Shown here: positions 12,719 to 56,540 of the stretch, piece by piece
Numbering within the stretch: the stretch's first letter is position 1
How the letters are laid out: each line of letters starts with the position of its first letter
NCBI GenBank assembly: GCA_013314735.1
Contig: JABUFD010000009.1
Span: 1-64,000 of the forward strand
Source: Anaerolineae bacterium
Lineage (GTDB): Bacteria > Chloroflexota > Anaerolineae > Anaerolineales > Anaerolineaceae
Length of the DNA: 64,000 nt
Direction: 5' to 3'
Position numbers and translations under genes: made by a program
Notes under the pieces: model-generated
Told to the model about the DNA's origin: nothing
Database searches by the model: none
Seen by the model: only the letters and a program-made list of their open reading frames with translations

Positions 12719-17342
<4,624 letters not shown>

Positions 17343-32029: not shown

Positions 32030-32746
32030 TTAGACCGAACCGGTGTGTGCCTGCGCCAGTTGGAGCGCGCGCGGGAAAAGAATGTTGTTCTCTTTGTGGA
32101 TATGCTGGTGCAGGTCGTTTTCCAGCTGCTGCAGGCCGGTCATCAGGGCGCGGTAGGTATTGCAGGCCCATTCCGGCAGGGCGAAGCCATCACTCAGGCG
32201 GCGCAGGTTGTCCAACCCGTCCCCCGCCTGCTGGTGCTCCAGCTCCATCTGGCGGATCGGACCGTTGATGGCGCCTGCCGGGGCGTGCGGTCCGGCTTCC
32301 ATCTGGCGGATGATCGGGAACAGGATGCGTTCCTCCTTGGCCATGTGCGCCTCAAGTTCCAGCGCCAGTTGCCCCAGGGTTTCCTGCACCTGCTGCAGAC
32401 GGGCGTCCTTGCTGCCGTGGGCGCGTACCACGCGCGCCGCCACCTCGCCCAGGCGCGGCAATTCGGCGCGCAGGTAGGCATGGTGGGTCTGTTCAATATG
32501 GTCCGCCAGTTCCGTCAGCGTAAAGGCGCCGGGGTCCAGCACGGGCTGGCCTGTTGGCGCAGCCGCCGCGGCTTCCAGGCGCTGGATCAGTTCGGCAACA
32601 TCCATTCGCTGGCTGCGGCAGGCCTGTGCCAGGCTGTTGCTGCCGCCGCAGCAGTAGTCTATCCCGGCATCTTCCAGCACACTCCACAGGGCGGGGTGGC
32701 GCACCACCACGCTGGCAACACTATCATCGGGTTGTATTTGAGACAT
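32030..32746 (-). CDS. ric: Iron-sulfur cluster repair di-iron protein (RIC/ScdA/YtfE)
   Basis: A 238-residue protein with both RIC parts. The N-terminal ScdA_N segment has PALWSVLEDAGIDYCCGG with its CC pair. The C-terminal hemerythrin-like four-helix bundle has His and Glu ligands in HIEQTHHAYLRAELP, HMAKEERILFP, QMELEHQQAG and HQHIHKENNILFP. RIC proteins repair Fe-S clusters and iron centres damaged by nitric oxide or oxidants. The ATG at 32746 follows AAGGAG. A near-perfect promoter (TTGACA-17-TACAAT) lies 85 bases upstream. The gene is divergent from the ABC transporter/asr genes and shares their regulatory gap. Confidence 0.92.
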   Translation of the reverse strand: MSQIQPDDSVASVVVRHPALWSVLEDAGIDYCCGGSNSLAQACRSQRMDVAELIQRLEAAAAAPTGQPVLDPGAFTLTELADHIEQTHHAYLRAELPRLGEVAARVVRAHGSKDARLQQVQETLGQLALELEAHMAKEERILFPIIRQMEAGPHAPAGAINGPIRQMELEHQQAGDGLDNLRRLSDGFALPEWACNTYRALMTGLQQLENDLHQHIHKENNILFPRALQLAQAHTGSV

Positions 32747-32831
32747 ATCACACTCCTTGAACCATCGGGCAAACATCCTTTGTTTCTGCATCCGGACTGC
32801 GCTACAGGACAGCAGCCGCGGGTTCATTTTG

Positions 32832-32860
32832 ATTGTAGGAAGGAGCGGGTGGGCTGTCAA
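32832..32860 (-). promoter_or_regulatory. Consensus promoter of ric
   Basis: On the minus strand a perfect TTGACA (32860-32855), a 17-base spacer and TACAAT (32837-32832) form one of the best sigma-70-type promoters in the window. An inverted repeat ATACC (32888-32892)/GGTAT (32901-32905) lies just upstream and could be an operator. Confidence 0.75.
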
Positions 32861-32958
32861 TTGCCGCGCAGGGGGAATATGACATTTATACCATAAAATA
32901 GGTATTTATCACTTAAAATACATAAATCCTCTTGCCGGTTTACGCAAACAATGCTATC

Positions 32959-32978
32959 ATTGTGAAATAAATCACAAT
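32959..32978. promoter_or_regulatory. CRP/FNR-superfamily operator (HcpR-like palindrome)
   Basis: A perfect palindrome, ATTGTGA-AATAAA-TCACAAT, fits the TGTGA-N6-TCACA pattern bound by CRP-type regulators and by HcpR, the nitrosative-stress regulator of anaerobes. Its centre (32968.5) lies about 62-66 bases before the likely start of the ABC transporter transcript, an activator position. On the ric side it lies about 140 bases upstream. Confidence 0.7.
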
Positions 32979-33020
32979 CAACGCTGGCACCCACGCCTGT
33001 TCCACTGATTTCATTCACGG

Positions 33021-33026
33021 TACAAT
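33021..33026 (+). promoter_or_regulatory. -10 box TACAAT for the ABC transporter/asr genes
   Basis: TACAAT ends 10 bases before the ATG at 33037. The -35 region is poor, which fits dependence on the activator palindrome at 32959-32978. There is no ribosome site, so the first gene is translated from a leaderless or nearly leaderless message. Confidence 0.55.
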
Positions 33027-33036
33027 CACGGTACAC

Positions 33037-34002
33037 ATGTCCAACAAATTTCCTCTCCCCCATCCTGCTGCCCAAACGCGTCCCTTCACCGCCCTCCTGC
33101 TGCTGTGGCTGCTCTTTACAGTCGGCTGCGCCGGCGTTCCCCCGGCCCCTGCGGCAGAAACCGTCCTGCTCACGGATGCGGCCATGCGCCCGGTGACTGT
33201 CCCCTACCAGCCCCACACCGTGGCCGCCCTGGGCGCATCGCTGGCTGAACTCTGGCTCGAAGCCGGCGGTTCGCTGGCCGGCGTCACCAGTGATGCCTTC
33301 GAAGGCCGCACCCTGGCACTGCCGGATACCATCACCGTGGTGGGCACCATCAAAGACCCCGACGCCGACCTGCTGCTCGCCCTCCAGCCCGACCTGGTGA
33401 TCCTTTCCCCGGACCTCGCAGGGCACACCCGCCTGGCACCCATTTTTGACCAGGCCGGCATCGCCTACTTCTATGCCACCGCCGACAGCTTCCCCGATTA
33501 CCTCACCGTGCTGGAAGCTTTTACCCGCCTCACCGGCGCGGCAGAAAACTACCAGCTGCACGGCACCGCCCAGCAGGAAACCATCCAGCAGTTGCTGGAA
33601 TCCTGCACCCCGCGCATCACTGATCCCCGCGCCCTGGTACTGCGGGCTTTCTCCTCCGGCGTCAGGGTCAAGGCGGATGGGATTGTCGCCACGGAAATCC
33701 TCGATGATTTCGCGGTGGCCAACATTGCCGCCAGCCGCAGCAGCCTGCTGGAGGAACTCAGCCTCGAGGCGATTGTGGAGGAAGACCCCGACTACATCTT
33801 TGTGGTTACCATGGGCGATGATACCGCTGCCGCCATGCAGGCGCTGGAAGCCTCCTTAACCACCCACCCCGCCTGGCAGACGCTCTCTGCTGTGCAATCC
33901 GGGCAGCTGCATTTTCTCCCCAAAGACCTCTTCCATTACAAGCCCAACGCCCGTTGGATGGAATCGTACCAATACCTCCATGAAATCATCTGCCAACCCT
34001 GA
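33037..34002 (+). CDS. Fe-siderophore/heme/B12-type ABC transporter substrate-binding lipoprotein
   Basis: A 321-residue protein of the BtuF/FecB (cluster A-II) type. The signal peptide ends LLFTVGCAG, lipid-bearing Cys 31. RPVTVPYQPHTVAALGASLAELWLEAG and DLLLALQPDLVILSP are typical of the first lobe. A long helix joins the lobes. Such proteins deliver ferric siderophores, heme or cobalamin to a FecCD permease, and the ligand cannot be told from sequence. The stop lies 23 bases inside the permease gene. This gene heads the likely transcript that continues to asrC, so iron or siroheme supply for sulfite reductase is a sensible context. Confidence 0.85.
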   Translation: MSNKFPLPHPAAQTRPFTALLLLWLLFTVGCAGVPPAPAAETVLLTDAAMRPVTVPYQPHTVAALGASLAELWLEAGGSLAGVTSDAFEGRTLALPDTITVVGTIKDPDADLLLALQPDLVILSPDLAGHTRLAPIFDQAGIAYFYATADSFPDYLTVLEAFTRLTGAAENYQLHGTAQQETIQQLLESCTPRITDPRALVLRAFSSGVRVKADGIVATEILDDFAVANIAASRSSLLEELSLEAIVEEDPDYIFVVTMGDDTAAAMQALEASLTTHPAWQTLSAVQSGQLHFLPKDLFHYKPNARWMESYQYLHEIICQP

Positions 34003-34984
34003 ACTCAGCCTGATCGCGGTGCTGCTTGCCGCTGCCATCCTGCTGGCGCTGGCAAGCATGGTGTGCGGGGCATCCACCCTGGGCGCACGGGATGCCGTGC
34101 AGTGGCTCAGCGGCAGTGCTGATGCCTCCGTTGATGCCATTTTCCGCTACATCCGCCTGCCCCGCACGCTGGCCTGCCTGCTGGTGGGCAGCGCCCTGGC
34201 GGCAGCCGGCCTGCTGCTGCAAACCGCCCTCAACAATCCCCTCGCCAGCCCCGGTGTGATCGGGGTCAACGCGGGGTCAGGCCTGTTCGTGGTGGCAGCT
34301 TCCATCCTGTTCCCGTCTGTCTTCTGGGTGCGCGGGCTGGCGGCGCTGGGCGGGGCGCTGGCGGCGGCGCTGTGGGTGTATGCCCTGGCACGCCGCGGCG
34401 GTGCTTCGCGCGTCACCATCATCCTCGCCGGTGTGGCGATCTCCAGCCTGCTGGCGGCGGGGATGGACGCGATCGTTACCCTGTATCCCACCGCGATCAT
34501 GGACAGAACCGCGTTCTTCATCGGCGGCTTCAGCAGCATCTACAGCGGCGCGCTCCTGGTTGCATTGCCCTTCCTCCTCGCCGGATTTCTCGGCGCCGCC
34601 TTCCTGGCCGGACGGTTGGACCTGCTCCTGTTGGGCGATGAGGTGGCGGCTTCACTTGGACTGCACGTGGAACGCACCCGCTTCCTGGCAATCCTGTTTG
34701 CCGCCGCACTGGCAGCCGGTGCCGTCAGCATCGCCGGGCTGGTTGGCTTTGTCGGGCTGATCGTGCCGCACATGGTACGGCGGCTGACGGGCGGCGCCCT
34801 GCGCCGGTCATTGCCAGTGACCATACTGCTGGGCGGGTGCCTGGTGTTGGGCTGTGATCTGCTGGCACGGTTGTTATTCGCGCCCTACGAGGTGCCGGCC
34901 GGGATCCTGCTTTCCTTGATCGGCGCGCCCTTCTTCCTGTACCTGATCCTCAACCGGAGGAAACACCGCTATGATACAGCTTGA
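33980..34984 (+). CDS. FecCD/BtuC-family ABC transporter permease
   Basis: A 334-residue integral membrane protein with about ten hydrophobic helices. It has the FecCD hallmarks RYIRLPRTLACLLVGSALA, LNNPLASPGVIGVNAGSG, a central GGFSSIYSGALL segment, and the cytoplasmic coupling loop near GLIVPHMVRRLTGG. It forms the translocation path for iron chelates, heme or cobalamin. It overlaps the binding-protein gene by 23 bases and the ATPase gene by 14 bases, so the three are translationally coupled. Confidence 0.92.
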   Translation: MKSSANPELSLIAVLLAAAILLALASMVCGASTLGARDAVQWLSGSADASVDAIFRYIRLPRTLACLLVGSALAAAGLLLQTALNNPLASPGVIGVNAGSGLFVVAASILFPSVFWVRGLAALGGALAAALWVYALARRGGASRVTIILAGVAISSLLAAGMDAIVTLYPTAIMDRTAFFIGGFSSIYSGALLVALPFLLAGFLGAAFLAGRLDLLLLGDEVAASLGLHVERTRFLAILFAAALAAGAVSIAGLVGFVGLIVPHMVRRLTGGALRRSLPVTILLGGCLVLGCDLLARLLFAPYEVPAGILLSLIGAPFFLYLILNRRKHRYDTA

Positions 34985-35768
34985 CAACCTCCGCGTTGCC
35001 TTCGCCGGCCGTGAGGTGCTGGCGCAGGTGACTGCCGTGTTTGCCCCAGGCAGTTTCACCATCATCGTCGGGCCGAACGGCGCCGGCAAATCCACCCTGC
35101 TTAAGGCCATGGCCGGCATCGTCCCCCTCGCCGGCGGGGCTGTTTTGTATAACGGCCAGCCGCTGCACCGCATGGCGCGCACCGAACGCGCCCGCCGGGT
35201 GGCGTTCCTGCCCCAGACCCGGCCTGTCCCCGAGATGACCGCCCTCGACCTGGTGCGCCATGGGCGCTACCCGCACATGGGCTTCTCCAAAACCCTCTCG
35301 CCCCGCGACCATAGCGCCGTTGACCACGCCGTTGCCGCGGCTGACCTGGCACCGCTGCTAGGGCGCAGCCTGGCAACCCTCTCCGGCGGTGAGCGCCAGC
35401 GCGCCTACCTGGCAATGGCCATCGCCCAGGAAACCGAGGTGCTCCTGCTGGATGAACCTTCCACCCACCTCGACCTGCACTACCAGCTTGAGCTTCAGCA
35501 CCTCCTCGCGCGGCTGCACACCCAGGGCAAAACCATCATCATGGTTGCCCAGGACCTGCCGCAGGCCTTCACCTTTGCGCAGCACATCTGCCTGATGCAG
35601 CAAGGGCGGATTGTTTGCCACCAACCCCCGCCGGTGGTGCAGCAAAGCGGAACCCTCGAGCAGGTCTTCGGGTTTTCCCTCCAGCCTGTCCCGGCCGGTG
35701 ACGGCCTGTTGTACCAATATTCCCTGGCCCCTGCCGATCCGCCGCCCCCGGAGGAGACTGCGTATTGA
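34971..35768 (+). CDS. ABC transporter ATPase (FecE/BtuD-like)
   Basis: A 265-residue ATPase. Walker A is GPNGAGKST (about residues 35-43), the Q-loop is in VAFLPQTRPVP, the signature is LSGGERQR (about 137), Walker B is VLLLDEPSTHLD (about 157), and the switch His position is filled by AQDLPQAF. The usual His of the H-loop appears replaced by Gln in this stretch, which is unusual for the family and worth checking. It powers the FecCD-type permease. The short C-terminal tail matches siderophore/B12 importers. Confidence 0.9.
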   Translation: MIQLDNLRVAFAGREVLAQVTAVFAPGSFTIIVGPNGAGKSTLLKAMAGIVPLAGGAVLYNGQPLHRMARTERARRVAFLPQTRPVPEMTALDLVRHGRYPHMGFSKTLSPRDHSAVDHAVAAADLAPLLGRSLATLSGGERQRAYLAMAIAQETEVLLLDEPSTHLDLHYQLELQHLLARLHTQGKTIIMVAQDLPQAFTFAQHICLMQQGRIVCHQPPPVVQQSGTLEQVFGFSLQPVPAGDGLLYQYSLAPADPPPPEETAY

Positions 35769-35807
35769 CGGCATCGTTTTTGATCAGAAAGAGAAGGTGA
35801 TCAATCC

Positions 35808-36575
35808 ATGTTTCAGGAAGAAGTAACCATGACAGCCCAGGCTGCCGCAAAAAAATCAAAATTCCTCACCAACAACGCCTGGGGCTATTTTGCAGCCGCG
35901 ATGCTCGCGGGCATCTACGTCGGCCTCGGCATCCTGCTGATCACCACCATCGGCGGGGTATTGGGCGGCGCGCCCGCCACCAAAATTGTGATGGGGGCCG
36001 CCTTTGGCGTGGCATTAAGCCTGGTGATCTTCGCCGGCGCGGAACTGTTTACCGGCAACAACCTGGTGATGACCGTCGGGCTGGTGCGGCGCACAGTAAC
36101 CCTGCGCCAGACGTTGTGGCTGTGGCTGGTGTGTTTCGCCGGCAACTGGGCCGGTTCCATCCTGCTGGCACTGCTGTTCCTGGCGGGCGGGTTTGGCGCG
36201 GGTGCGGTGGGCGAGTTCATCGCGGCCGCTTCCGCCGCAAAGGCGGCTCTGCCCTTCTTCCCGCTCCTGGTCCGCGGTATACTCTGCAACATCCTGGTCT
36301 GCCTAGCGGTGTGGTGCGGCTTCCGCTGTAAAACTGAAAGTGCCAGGCTGGTGATGATCTTCTGGTGCCTGTTTGTGTTTATCACCGTCGGGATGGAACA
36401 CAGCATTGCCAACATGTCACTGCTGAGCATCGCCCTTTTCAACCCGCTCACCACGGGCATAACCGCAGGCGGATATTTGTACAACATCCTGGTGGTCACA
36501 CTGGGAAATATGGTGGGGGGAATTGTTTTTGTCGCTTTTCCTTATCTGCTGATTTCAAGGCAACAGGAGCATTAA
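35808..36575 (+). CDS. FNT-family anion channel, probable hydrosulfide channel
   Basis: A 255-residue membrane protein with six helices of the formate/nitrite transporter family. Hallmarks are AGAELFTGNNLVM, RGILCNILVCLAVWCGF and GMEHSIANMSLL with the central His of the pore. The family passes formate, nitrite or hydrosulfide. The gene stands 1 base before asrA. In Clostridioides difficile a hydrosulfide channel of this family is also encoded next to asrABC, so HS- export is the best guess here. Nitrite or formate transport cannot be excluded. The start could be the ATG at 35808 (AAGGTGA before it) or an ATG 7 codons on. Confidence 0.85.
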   Translation: MFQEEVTMTAQAAAKKSKFLTNNAWGYFAAAMLAGIYVGLGILLITTIGGVLGGAPATKIVMGAAFGVALSLVIFAGAELFTGNNLVMTVGLVRRTVTLRQTLWLWLVCFAGNWAGSILLALLFLAGGFGAGAVGEFIAAASAAKAALPFFPLLVRGILCNILVCLAVWCGFRCKTESARLVMIFWCLFVFITVGMEHSIANMSLLSIALFNPLTTGITAGGYLYNILVVTLGNMVGGIVFVAFPYLLISRQQEH

Positions 36576-36576
36576 T

Positions 36577-37599
36577 ATGGGATACCGATTGTCTACAGAC
36601 GCAATGAACCAGGTGCTGGCGGAACTGGGGAAACAATACGCCATTTACGCCCCCAAATGCTACCCGGGCGGCAACACCTTTTCGGAGGTGGATTGCATCC
36701 GCTACGGCGAGGTGCACACGGTGGAGGAAATTGAAACCGAACGCAAATCAGATTACTCCTTCAAGGAGTTGCTGCTGCCGTTCTCCGAAACTTTGTTTTT
36801 CTTCACCGAAAACACCATCCAGGAAGCCTCCGTGATCGAAAAAGACATGGTCATCTTTCTGCGCAGCTGCGACCTGCACGCTGTGCGCCGGCTGGATGAG
36901 ATCTACCTGCGCAATGGCCTGCCGGATTTTTACTACCAGCGCCTGCGTGAGAAGGTGCAATTTGTCCTGATCGGCTGCCCGGCCGCGTTCGATTCCTGCT
37001 TCTGTGTTGACATGGGAACCAACCGCAGCGACAACTACGATGCCGCCTTCGAGCTGCGCGGTGGACAGGTATACATGGCCGCCCGCCATCCCCAATGGGA
37101 AGCCCTGCTGCGGCAGTACGGCGAGCCTGTCGAGGGTTTCGCGCCTTCCTATGTGACCGAAACCCCCACCCGGGTTTCCATCCCCGCCGATCTCTCACCG
37201 GCGGTGGCAAAATCGACCGTGTGGGATGAATACGACAAACGTTGCATCGGCTGCGGTCGCTGCAATTATGCCTGCCCCACCTGCACCTGTTTTACCATGC
37301 AGGACATCTACTACACCGACAACGCCAAAGCCGGTGAACGGCGCCGCGTGGCGGCATCGTGCATGGTGGATGGCTTCACCGACGTCGCCGGCGGCGGCAG
37401 TTACCGCAAGAAACACGGGGAACGCATGCGCTTCAAGGTGCTGCACAAGGTGTATGATTTCAAGCAACGCAACGGGTACCAGATGTGCGTCGGTTGCGGC
37501 CGCTGTGATGATGTCTGCCCGGAATATATATCTTTTTCCGCCATTTTGAACAAACTGGAAGAAGCCATGCAGGAGGTGCGCGGTGACGGTCAGCAATGA
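36577..37599 (+). CDS. asrA: Anaerobic sulfite reductase subunit A
   Basis: A 340-residue cytoplasmic iron-sulfur protein. Two ferredoxin-type clusters are visible: CIGCGRCNYACPTC (about residue 223) and CVGCGRCDDVCPEY (about 304). Upstream is the typical AsrA body, with FLRSCDLHAVRRLDEIYL and LIGCPAAFDSCFCVDMG. AsrA is the electron-transfer subunit that passes electrons from the NADH-oxidising AsrB to the siroheme subunit AsrC. AGGAG precedes the ATG. It starts 1 base after the FNT stop and its end overlaps asrB by 17 bases. Confidence 0.92.
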   Translation: MGYRLSTDAMNQVLAELGKQYAIYAPKCYPGGNTFSEVDCIRYGEVHTVEEIETERKSDYSFKELLLPFSETLFFFTENTIQEASVIEKDMVIFLRSCDLHAVRRLDEIYLRNGLPDFYYQRLREKVQFVLIGCPAAFDSCFCVDMGTNRSDNYDAAFELRGGQVYMAARHPQWEALLRQYGEPVEGFAPSYVTETPTRVSIPADLSPAVAKSTVWDEYDKRCIGCGRCNYACPTCTCFTMQDIYYTDNAKAGERRRVAASCMVDGFTDVAGGGSYRKKHGERMRFKVLHKVYDFKQRNGYQMCVGCGRCDDVCPEYISFSAILNKLEEAMQEVRGDGQQ

Positions 37600-38380
37600 G
37601 TATCTTTCCCACTGGGCTGAGATTCGGGAAGTCATCCCGCATACCGCCATCGAATATACCTTCCGCATGGCCTACCAGGGCGCAGTGCAGCCCGGCCAGT
37701 TCTTCCAGGTGTCCATCCCCAAATACGGTGAAGCGCCAATCTCGGTCAGCGGCATCGGGGAGGGAACAATTGACCTCACCATCCGCCGCGTGGGACGGGT
37801 GACCAACGAAGTCTTTGAACGCTATGCCGGAGAACGGCTTTTCCTGCGCGGACCGTACGGCATCGGGTTCGATGTGGAGCTATACCGCGGCCGCGAAGTG
37901 GTGATCGTTGCCGGCGGAACCGGGGTCTCACCGGTGCGCCCGGTGATTGAACATTTTTACTGGCACCCGGAACTCGGCCGCAAAGTCAGCCTGATCGCCG
38001 GCTTCAAATCGCGCGAGGATATCCTCTTCGCCGAAGACTTCACCCGCTGGCAGGAACAGATGGATGTGATCCTGACTGTTGACAACAACAACGGCGACCC
38101 CGATCTGCGCCAGGGACTGGTGACGGAATACATCCCCGCGCTGGCGATCGCAGACCCAGCCCGTGCAGCCGCGATTGTGGTCGGGCCGCCGGCGATGATG
38201 CGTTTTTCGATCCAGGCCCTGCTGCGGCGCGGGATTGCCGAAGAGAATATCTGGGTTTCATACGAACGCAAAATGTGCTGCGGTATCGGGAAATGCGGGC
38301 ATTGCAAAATCGATGATGTATATGTGTGCCTCGATGGGCCGGTGTTCAACTACACCCGCGCCAAAGACCTGGCAGATTGA
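37583..38380 (+). CDS. asrB: Anaerobic sulfite reductase subunit B
   Basis: A 265-residue flavoprotein of the ferredoxin-reductase type. An FAD-binding barrel (PGQFFQVSIPKYGEAPISVS) precedes a nucleotide-binding domain with VIVAGGTGVSPVRPVI. The C-terminal KMCCGIGKCGHCKIDDVYVC holds a 2Fe-2S cluster, as in dihydroorotate dehydrogenase PyrK. AsrB oxidises NADH and feeds electrons to AsrA. The start is GTG at 37583, 6-7 bases after AGGAGG and inside the end of asrA. Confidence 0.92.
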   Translation: MTVSNEYLSHWAEIREVIPHTAIEYTFRMAYQGAVQPGQFFQVSIPKYGEAPISVSGIGEGTIDLTIRRVGRVTNEVFERYAGERLFLRGPYGIGFDVELYRGREVVIVAGGTGVSPVRPVIEHFYWHPELGRKVSLIAGFKSREDILFAEDFTRWQEQMDVILTVDNNNGDPDLRQGLVTEYIPALAIADPARAAAIVVGPPAMMRFSIQALLRRGIAEENIWVSYERKMCCGIGKCGHCKIDDVYVCLDGPVFNYTRAKDLAD

Positions 38381-38398
38381 AAGGACGGATGGGAAAGC

Positions 38399-39361
38399 AT
38401 GGATATTAATGTCAAACAAGTACGTAAAAACGCCTTCCGCGTGACCAAAACCCGCGGCATCACGGCTTCCCGCATCCGCATCCCCGGCGGACACCTCGAT
38501 GCCGACCTGCTGCCGGTGATCCAGCGTATTGCACAGGAATACGGCGATGGCTCGATCCACCTGACCGTGCGCCAGGGGGTTGAAATTCCCGGCATCCGCT
38601 ACGAAGATATGCCGCAGGTCAACCAGCTGCTGCAGCCACTGATCGACCGGATGGGGATCAACCAGGAGGAACCAGGCACGGGTTACAGTTCGGCCGGCAC
38701 GCGCAATATTTCCGCCTGCATCGGGAACCGGGTGTGCCCCTACGGCTGTTACGATACCACCGCCTTCGCCCAGCGGATTGAGAAAGCGATTTTCCCCCAC
38801 GACCTGCACTTCAAAATCGCTCTCACCGGCTGCCCGAACGATTGCGCCAAGGTGCGCCTGCACGATTTTGGCATCATCGGCATGACCCTGCCGCAGTATG
38901 AGAAAGACCGCTGCGTGGACTGCCGCGCCTGTGTCAAAGCTTGCGCCAAAAAATCGGTGGACGCATTGAGGACTGTCAACTACAAGGTAGAGCGCAACCA
39001 TGAAAAATGCATCGGCTGCGGCGAGTGCGTGATCAACTGCCCCACCCGCGCCTGGACCCGCTCGCAGGAGCAGTACTACCGGCTGGTGCTGTTTGGCCGT
39101 ACCGGCAAGCGCAACCCGCGTCTGGCGGTGGACTTCATCAAGTGGGTCGATGAGGAAAGCATCCTCAAGATCATCAAAAATACCTACGCTTACGTCCAGG
39201 CCCACATTGACCCGAATGCCCCCGGCGGCAAGGAACACATCGGCTACATTGTTGACCGCACCGGCGTGCAGGAATACCTGAAATGGGCGCTGCAGGACGT
39301 GAACCTGCCGGATTGCGCCGAGGTCAGTTCACCGTTGTATTGGAGCGGCCTGCATTACTGA
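38399..39361 (+). CDS. asrC: Anaerobic sulfite reductase subunit C (siroheme)
   Basis: A 320-residue sulfite/nitrite reductase-like protein. The siroheme-4Fe4S ligands are in CIGNRVCPYGC (about residue 107) and TGCPNDC (about 143). Two ferredoxin clusters follow, CVDCRACVKAC (about 172) and CIGCGECVINC (about 204). With AsrAB it reduces sulfite to sulfide with NADH. It is the last gene of the group and begins 18 bases after asrB. No dsr or aps genes are in the window, so detoxifying or energy-linked sulfite use rather than full sulfate reduction is indicated. Confidence 0.93.
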   Translation: MDINVKQVRKNAFRVTKTRGITASRIRIPGGHLDADLLPVIQRIAQEYGDGSIHLTVRQGVEIPGIRYEDMPQVNQLLQPLIDRMGINQEEPGTGYSSAGTRNISACIGNRVCPYGCYDTTAFAQRIEKAIFPHDLHFKIALTGCPNDCAKVRLHDFGIIGMTLPQYEKDRCVDCRACVKACAKKSVDALRTVNYKVERNHEKCIGCGECVINCPTRAWTRSQEQYYRLVLFGRTGKRNPRLAVDFIKWVDEESILKIIKNTYAYVQAHIDPNAPGGKEHIGYIVDRTGVQEYLKWALQDVNLPDCAEVSSPLYWSGLHY

Positions 39362-42655: not shown

Positions 42656-43262
42656 ATACTTACCACCGCCATCCCATCCCGGAGGGAGGTTCAGAAGTTG
42701 AACATCAACCATTCCCAACGTTCATCACCGATGCCTGCCTTTGACGTTCCAAACCAACCTTATACACATACCACCGCCATCCCATCCCGGAGGGAGGCAG
42801 TCAGGTCACGAACACCAGCGGCGTCTGTCCCTCCCTCCGGGATGGAAGTTCAGGAGTGTACCTTCAACCATTCCCAACGTTCATCACCAATGCCTGCCTT
42901 TGATGTACCGGCCAGCCATTTCACACTTACCTCCGCCATCCCATCCCGGAGGGAGGCAGTCAGGTCACGAACACCAGCGGCGCATGTCCCTCCCTCCGGG
43001 ATGGAAGTTCAGGCGTGTACCTTCAACCATTCCCAACGTTCATCACCAATGCCTGCCTTTGATGTACCGGCCAGCCATTTCACACTTACCTCCGCCATCC
43101 CATCCCGGAGGGAGGCAGTCAGGTCACGAATACCTGCGGCGCAAGTCCCTCCCTCCGGGATGGAAGTTCAGGCGTGTACCTTCAACCATTCCCAACGTTC
43201 ATCACTGATGCCTGCCTTTGGCGTTCCAAACCACCATTTCACACTTACATCCGCCATCCCAT
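42656..43262. repeat. Tandem array, 159-bp unit with an internal hairpin
   Basis: The same block recurs at a spacing of 159 bp (42776, 42935, 43094, 43253), with a 108-bp first copy at 42668. Three full units contain a perfect 15-bp inverted repeat, CCATCCCGGAGGGAG and its complement, at 42782-42845, 42941-43004 and 43100-43163. Units are nearly identical, so there are no CRISPR-like spacers. The array lies between the mannosidase promoter and the metzincin gene (gap 42550-43477). The frame stays open only because 159 is a multiple of 3, and I see no other support for coding. Confidence 0.88.
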
Positions 43263-43384
43263 CCCCAACGTCAACCACCGCGGCCAATCAGTTCAAACTC
43301 ACTCCCGCACACCTTCCTTCCTTTTAATAATCATTCCCGCTTTGCAGTTTTGCAAGGCGGCGCTGCGGCAGCGCGCGGGAATGC

Positions 43385-55740: not shown

Positions 55741-56540
55741 GATGGAATCCCCTCAACGGGGAATGGGTGTTTCTAACGAAAGTGGACGGTTTGTCTGGTA
55801 CGTCGTATACCGTCAAGTCTTAATCCCCTGAACGGGGTATAGGTGTTTCTGACCTTTGGCGATACCTGGACATGCTGGGATCGTGGCGGTGCTATGTCTT
55901 AATCCCCTAAACGGGGTATAGGTGTTTCTGACTATTCTTGAAGAGGCTGTTATTTACGGCGGATCATGCCGTGTCTTAATCCCCTAAACGGGGTATAGGT
56001 GTTTCTGACTTTTCAACAGGAGAGACACGATGACCACTTCTACAGTCGGGTCTTAATCCCCTAAACGGGGTATAGGTGTTTCTGACAAGAATTAAAAATG
56101 AATAGCAAGAAATTTTTTGAAGTTTGGTCTTAATCCCCTAAACGGGGTATAGGTGTTTCTGACTTATCACCCTCAACGAGGAAATGCTGGAAAAGCTTGT
56201 GTCTTAATCCCCTAAACGGGGTATAGGTGTTTCTGACCAGACTGTGTGCATGGCAATACTCCGCCAAATTGCAGTCTTAATCCCCTAAACGGGGTATAGG
56301 TGTTTCTGACCGCCGCATGGAAGCGGCGGAGGCACAGTACCAGGAGGAAAGTCTTAATCCCCTAAACGGGGTATAGGTGTTTCTGACGGCGTGAGAGAAG
56401 TCGAGTTGGCAGTGCGCCTGGCTCAAGTCTTAATCCCCTAAACGGGGTATAGGTGTTTCTGACGTTTACATCTACGGCCTGGTACTGGCATTTTTGGGAT
56501 TGGGTCTTAATCCCCTAAACGGGGTATAGGTGTTTCTGAC
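55741..56540 (-). CRISPR. CRISPR array, 11 repeats and 10 spacers, no cas genes nearby
   Basis: The 37-base repeat begins GTCTTAAT, has a central CCCC-TAAAC-GGGG stem and ends TTTCTGAC (plus strand). Repeats start at 55741, 55817, 55896, 55973, 56050, 56127, 56201, 56274, 56351, 56427 and 56504. Spacers are 36-42 bases. Nine repeats are identical, the one at 55817 has a single change, and the one at 55741 is badly decayed. Decay at the left end marks the trailer, so the leader is on the right and transcription is on the minus strand. In that sense the repeat ends ATTAAGAC, a plausible 8-base crRNA handle. No cas gene is present within the window, so the type (I or III) cannot be fixed. Confidence 0.97.

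Follow-up and report, generated by a model that had tools for sequence, protein, structure and literature searches.

Anaerobic sulfite reductase, AsrABC, is an NADH-dependent enzyme whose genes have been connected with the repressor Rex before. In Staphylococcus aureus, Rex recognizes the consensus TTGTGAA-W4-TTCACAA, binds at adhE and nirC, and is prevented by NADH from binding at adhE; the motif had earlier been described for ArcR (accessible part of PMC2883068). For Thermoanaerobacterium saccharolyticum, a Rex site (TGGTTATTTATTTAACAAA) was predicted in front of asrABC (accessible part of PMC5886521), so that a Rex site before these genes is not new. A literature search, with most subscription papers beyond reach, yielded no paper reporting Rex binding at an asr operon. 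Here we analyze an asrABC locus in an Anaerolineae bacterium (GCA_013314735.1), contained in a 64,000-nucleotide stretch of contig JABUFD010000009.1 (referred to as the window). A set of importer genes (fecBCD), a channel gene (fnt) and asrABC diverges there from a ric gene, and the gap between them holds a perfect palindrome. We consider it probable that fecBCD-fnt-asrABC is an operon acquired from Clostridia-like anaerobes, which stands under an operator of the host's Rex and serves as an NADH sink.

The palindrome TTGTGAAATAAATCACAA is located at positions 32960–32977, has no strand and is a perfect TTGTGA-N6-TCACAA, as stated in the preliminary description of this locus. Such perfect sites occur at only two places in the whole 4.09-Mb genome and are identical in all 18 letters, while the reversed control pattern has no perfect occurrence genome-wide. 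The second copy stands before a group of osmC-like, 2Fe-2S, adhE, nuoE and nuoF genes (the osmC-adhE operon), 3.3 kb from a rex gene with one large gene in between. The Rex protein encoded there reaches 232 bits with NF003994 (cut-off 130), and the genome encodes two Rex paralogues (C9 and C12), each above an NCBIfam Rex cut-off. Near-copies of the palindrome are found in the same locus before adhE (TTGTGAAATAAATCACAT, C9:333221), at C9:334122 (TTGTGAAATAATTAACAA) and 17 bp before rex (TTGTGAAGTTTGTCACGA, C9:337373). One near-copy of this locus ends in TTAACAA, like Rex sites. The genome hence combines a rex gene with like-lettered sites before both rex and adhE. An acyl-CoA dehydrogenase gene has a further near-copy approximately 35 bp upstream, and another lies 69 bp upstream of an arsR-like gene, which is followed by a pyridine nucleotide-disulfide reductase (identified by eye).

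A search for adhE at E 1e-100 found the gene in 8 of 101 genomes, this genome among them. Three of the seven others, all of the same family, have a clear site upstream of adhE (TTGTGAAAATATTCACAT, TTGTGAAATTTTGCACAA and ATGTGATAAATTTCACAA) and a fourth has a weaker one (ATGTTCAAAATTTCACAA). No such site was seen upstream of another adhE, adjoined by a Rex-like gene (by eye), or upstream of the remaining two, both partial matches. A matrix made from nine further sites, the identical 18-mer included, put the gap site 20 bits ahead of the rest of the 64 kb. When only the three adhE sites from other genomes were used, it again came first (26.5 versus 10.8 bits, a lead of 16). Compared with the Rex palindrome TTGTKAA-N4-TTMACAA the gap site has one mismatch, which we counted as agreement.

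The position of the palindrome relative to a predicted promoter is also consistent with a repressor site. The putative promoter of fecBCD-fnt-asrABC, TTGCCG-17-TATCAT with a TG before the -10 element, spans 32932–32960 on the plus strand and was assigned by consensus match only. The last base of its -10 element, 32960, is also the first of the palindrome, and the putative Rex operator thus overlaps the element by this one base. The predicted osmC-adhE promoter (TTGACA-17-TATATT) ends two bases upstream of its palindrome and the predicted rex promoter (TTGACG-17-TATAAT) four bases upstream of its site. From the end of the -10 element to the start of the palindrome the distances are thus -1, +2 and +4, each with a 17-bp spacer. 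At these three predicted promoters the placement is that of a repressor site. The predicted ric promoter, TTGACA-17-TACAAT, lies at 32832–32860 on the minus strand, approximately 100 bp from the palindrome (11 of 12 consensus letters, again a consensus match only). A shuffled region yields 0.4 promoter matches such as those in the gap region. The preliminary description had assigned the palindrome to control of the CRP/HcpR type; its letter-for-letter recurrence near rex-adhE and its overlap with the predicted -10 element speak for another assignment. At 33006–33018, part of the operator recurs with 11 of 13 letters. A riboswitch was considered as well, but Rfam at gathering score gave none in the gap and only a CRISPR repeat elsewhere.

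Profile scans confirmed eight genes at the locus: ric on the minus strand and, divergent from it on the plus strand, fecB, fecC, fecD, fnt, asrA, asrB and asrC. All members named in the preliminary description are therefore present, although it had counted seven. Each of the three asr subunits exceeds its own curated cut-off: asrA (36577–37599, subunit A; TIGR02910, 498.8 bits, cut-off 323.15), asrB (37583–38380, NAD-binding and Fe-S subunit; TIGR02911, 409.3 bits, cut-off 288.6; PF00175 and PF10418) and asrC (38399–39361, siroheme/4Fe-4S sulfite reductase subunit; TIGR02912, 533.8 bits, cut-off 324.1; PF01077 and PF03460). They are preceded by genes for a fecB-like substrate-binding protein of the class III fold (33037–34002; PF01497, with a model of pLDDT (predicted local distance difference test) 83 and Foldseek matches), a fecC-like permease (33980–34984; PF01032, 273.6 bits), a fecD-like ATPase (34971–35768; PF00005, best NCBIfam model FecE, below cut-off) and an FNT-family channel (35808–36575; PF01226, 217.2 bits). 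As all plus-strand genes overlap or are separated by at most 39 bases, a single operon from fecB to asrC (33037–39361) is plausible, and the arrangement is consistent with one.

The ric gene encodes a di-iron Fe-S cluster repair protein with ScdA_N and hemerythrin parts (PF04405 and PF01814 both matched), and its score of 242.4 bits with TIGR03652 (cut-off 204.7) identifies it as a RIC/YtfE equivalog. The open reading frame was first called from a TTG at 32860. Since the TIGR03652 match begins only at residue 48 of that call and AAGGAG directly precedes an ATG at 32746, the longer call is probably wrong and we read the gene as 32030–32746.

The channel is likely to conduct hydrosulfide or sulfite. 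Its best sequence match in the PDB is 3tdo (238 bits), which we take to be the hydrosulfide channel of Clostridioides difficile. None of the curated FNT subfamilies reached its cut-off (NirC 181.9 versus 293, fnt 174.7 versus 232.3, FocA 154.5 versus 290.1 bits). For the importer, no NCBIfam model listed for a FecBCD substrate reaches its cut-off (for fecD, the best 25 of 194 matches). Among the 50 Foldseek matches listed for the FecB model, most are siderophore binders with template modeling scores (query) of 0.59–0.69. These fold neighbors give no decision on the cargo; because the model resembles siderophore-binding proteins, iron supply is our plainest guess. An importer within the cassette raises the question of how cofactor or iron is supplied.

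Ten other proteins of the window were scanned; those near the locus (MOSC, HAD, two ASCH proteins and a GH38 mannosidase) show no evident connection with it. Elsewhere in the window, a CRISPR array at 55896–56536 contains nine CRISPR-DR35 repeats above the Rfam threshold, and a tandem repeat at 42672–43265 comprises 3.7 copies of a 159-bp unit with 91% matches. A translated motif resembling this repeat was seen by eye at C8 (L158), and the repeat may belong to a dispersed family.

AsrC is rare among the relatives of this bacterium. Above the family cut-off of 324.1 bits it was found in one of 121 relatives, namely this genome only, the next best match having 124.9 bits; the same count, again this genome only, was obtained for RIC above its cut-off. 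At E 0.001 there were weak matches in these relatives to AsrC (111) and RIC (13). A protein search covering 400 genomes sampled from the phylum, in which at most five AsrC candidates were scored per genome, found AsrC at E 1e-40 only in this genome and RIC at E 1e-20 in two, the second at 38% identity. AsrABC is listed for deep-sea Chloroflexota metagenome-assembled genomes in the accessible part of PMC11005417. As the search of these 400 genomes yielded AsrC nowhere else, the data suggest that fecBCD-fnt-asrABC was acquired by transfer, as a clostridial cassette. The GC content was uninformative as a mark of transfer (island genes 57–66%, window 60.5%).

To compare this cassette with its relatives we used the best 80 of 92 related asr loci from a pattern-led search of genome contigs. 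A concatenated AsrABC tree of 74 of these loci (63 Bacillota, 7 Spirochaetota, 3 Fusobacteriota and 1 ungrouped) placed the window among Bacillota and Spirochaetota, as sister to Sporobacter termitidis (support 100; 69% identity). The rows starred together with the window include a Christensenellaceae bacterium in which fecBCD, FNT and asrABC also occur together, as well as four Spirochaetota. We only infer the direction of transfer, since the tree was made quickly and flags the window row for an atypical composition, and since near records are excluded from the search. The order fecBCD-FNT-asrABC was seen in three loci (L062, L085 and L077), of which L077 has a Crp-family gene (2150–2842) between fecD and fnt and a fecB truncated where the contig ends; in L079, FNT-asrABC is adjoined by a convergent fecBCD. 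The preliminary description had proposed one functional set: for fecBCD, FNT and asrABC this is supported by the recurring order, whereas for ric it is not supported. A RIC relative (E 1e-8) occurs near asr in one of the 80 loci only, with 27% identity. In L079, a hemerythrin-like protein (by eye) is encoded at 14648–15205, 5 kb from asr; besides L130 this is the only such hint.

The DNA upstream of the related asr genes lends weak support to Rex. In a first scan of 70 loci, Rex-like sites were found in 19, with 1.8 expected from shuffles. A controlled scan covered 68 of the 80 loci; almost all of the other 12 had too little upstream DNA to be included (319 bases in L091). It gave Rex-like sites in 18 of 68 loci compared to 16 of 423 control regions. 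We keep this enrichment as weak support because a CRP pattern and three of five decoys were enriched too. Two HcpR-type patterns were found in 0 and 2 of the 68 loci (7 and 4 of 423 controls) and an FNR pattern in none (1 of 423). Seven loci (L056, L093, L098, L103, L109, L115 and L129) carry two separate palindromes before asr or fnt and a Crp-family gene in the stretch; one palindrome of each pair is TGTGA-N6-TCACA and the other Rex-like or of the TGTTA type. This suggests two regulators in these clostridial loci.

Based on these results, our model of the operon is as follows. Transcription of fecBCD-fnt-asrABC would start from the TTGCCG-17-TATCAT promoter (32932–32960), with the palindrome at 32960–32977 acting as operator of the host's Rex repressor. 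At a low NADH/NAD+ ratio, Rex would occupy the region of the -10 element and the start, and transcription would be blocked. Once NADH accumulates, Rex would be released and AsrABC would be made, spending NADH on the reduction of sulfite to sulfide. The FNT channel would move the anion, exporting sulfide or admitting sulfite, and chelated iron for the Fe-S and siroheme centers may come through the importer. Together with the adhE operon, which has the same operator, the asr operon would thereby give the cell two outlets for NADH. The ric gene would be a neighbor with its own promoter, probably outside the reach of this operator.

A number of observations weigh against control by Rex and the role as NADH sink. 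At position 12 the gap site has an A in place of the T of the strict Rex pattern, and it agrees with the CRP consensus in every letter. The predicted fec promoter matches the consensus in only 9 of 12 positions, and fecB has no evident ribosome-binding site. Nor does the promoter geometry hold throughout: at the remaining Rex-type sites examined, no promoter matching at least 9/12 letters lies within 4 bp. Weaker matches (8/12) precede the acyl-CoA dehydrogenase site by 6 bp and one adhE site of the family by 4 bp; as the other sites have weaker matches or none, the geometric argument rests on three promoters. In the controlled scan a CRP-like pattern was as enriched as the Rex pattern (17 of 68 versus 7 of 423). 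The five decoys occurred in 5, 2, 14, 3 and 20 of 68 loci versus 5, 11, 5, 14 and 6 of 423 controls, so that three were enriched, one of them (20/68 versus 6/423) beyond Rex; the two strongest decoys have the letters TTAAC in common with Rex. Furthermore, Rex-like sites are nearly confined to loci with a Crp-family gene of the type found in L077 (17 of 28, versus 1 of 40 without it), and TGTGA sites track this gene likewise (16 of 28 versus 2 of 40). Finally, the siroheme synthase model TIGR01470 gave no match at E 0.001 in this genome (95.5% complete), nor did it match in 5 of 14 control genomes. Among these are Synechococcus elongatus and Corynebacterium glutamicum, both of which need siroheme. 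A host without siroheme synthesis might import siroheme or a related iron tetrapyrrole for AsrC through FecBCD, so that salvage importer and enzyme would share one NADH-controlled operon; we regard this as quite improbable. An E. coli CysG N-terminal query matched just 2 of the 80 asr loci, and the gene neighborhood therefore says little on siroheme genes.

A CRP/FNR-type activator is the main competitor for the palindrome. It would act here as at clostridial asr operons with a Crp neighbor, which is supported by the exact match to TGTGA-N6-TCACA, the occurrence of that pattern in the 16 loci just mentioned and a Crp-family relative within the fetched stretch of 47 of the 80 loci. Of the 11 HTH_Crp_2 matches in this genome, five are above cut-off, and two of the proteins (C6 and C8) match nearly the full model and carry a cNMP-binding domain. 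The C8 protein has R, D and R at the three specificity positions, so it might bind TGTGA and would be the activator, and a weak downstream promoter (GTTCCA-16-TACAAT, 8/12) could depend on one. However, the cassette has no Crp gene here, the 18-mer and its variants cluster near rex-adhE, including the variant with the Rex-like end TTAACAA, and the site overlaps a better-scoring -10 element. We therefore judge an activator site unlikely, though it is the alternative we take most seriously. A site arising by chance or left as a relic, with no shared regulator, has in its favor that the bare pattern, with up to two mismatches, is not significantly enriched in the window over shuffles (2 occurrences versus a mean of 1.48). 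It is hard to reconcile with just two perfect copies in 4.09 Mb that share all their letters and are placed alike at their promoters, and we give it the least credence of all.

Control of ric and asr by HcpR, as a single nitrosative and sulfite stress unit, had been favored in the preliminary description. Both genes diverge from one gap, and the HcpR sites of Desulfovibrio were first described as TTGTGA-N6-TCACAA (accessible part of PMC545781). Later work cited in the accessible part of PMC7531388, however, names Rex as the repressor of Desulfovibrio sat. An HcpR-like regulator, which the preliminary description had suggested looking for, was indeed found at C6 (L048, L167). Its gene is divergent from ferredoxin-like and cupin-like genes (both by eye) and hcp, and the gap between them holds a perfect GTAACATACGTTAC (GTAAC-N4-GTTAC). 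The recognition helix of this protein reads R-P-S (positions numbered after E. coli CRP). The accessible part of PMC1274295 gives this type of motif as the HcpR2 consensus and ties it to a proline at that position of the helix. The HcpR-like protein thus has a different site of its own at hcp, whereas every position in the island gap has at least four mismatches to GTAAC-N4-GTTAC. A shared program with ric also finds no support on the promoter side: ric has a separate predicted promoter, and a repressor bound at the palindrome approximately 100 bp away would not cover it. Since ric in addition is not conserved with asr, joint control of the two is doubtful, and a single HcpR unit seems very unlikely to us.

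The proposed regulation of an acquired cassette by the host's Rex can be compared with several known systems. Desulfovibrio sat/apsAB has sites similar to TTGTGA-N6-TCACAA before sulfur-reduction genes, which were first ascribed to HcpR (accessible part of PMC545781), and Rex is reported to repress sat (accessible part of PMC7531388); the genes there serve sulfate activation, in contrast to sulfite reduction by AsrABC here. Sites of this kind in anaerobes are readily assigned to CRP or HcpR and may possibly be those of Rex. The clostridial asrABC operons are similar in sequence (AsrA 42–64%, AsrB 44–71% and AsrC 55–75% identical across the 80 loci, broken matches aside), and FNT adjoins asr in 22 of the 80. 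The channel of operons of the C. difficile type is, we assume, the one named HSC/FNT3. The window cassette differs in its lack of a Crp-family gene and in its host, which belongs to another phylum, Chloroflexota according to the preliminary description. Rex-like sites of the clostridial loci are mostly of the TTGTTA type, whereas the operator in the window is of the TTGTGA type, as near the genome's own rex-adhE. If our reading is correct, the host's Rex replaces the dedicated regulator of the Crp type that many clostridial asr operons have nearby, and an acquired anaerobic pathway has come under the NADH sensor of its host by way of an operator written in host letters. With the Rex regulon of S. 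aureus the locus shares the palindrome, the rex gene, adhE as co-target and an FNT-family target (nirC there), and with that of T. saccharolyticum it shares asrABC among the predicted targets. In contrast to these Firmicutes regulons, the operon under predicted Rex control here includes an importer.

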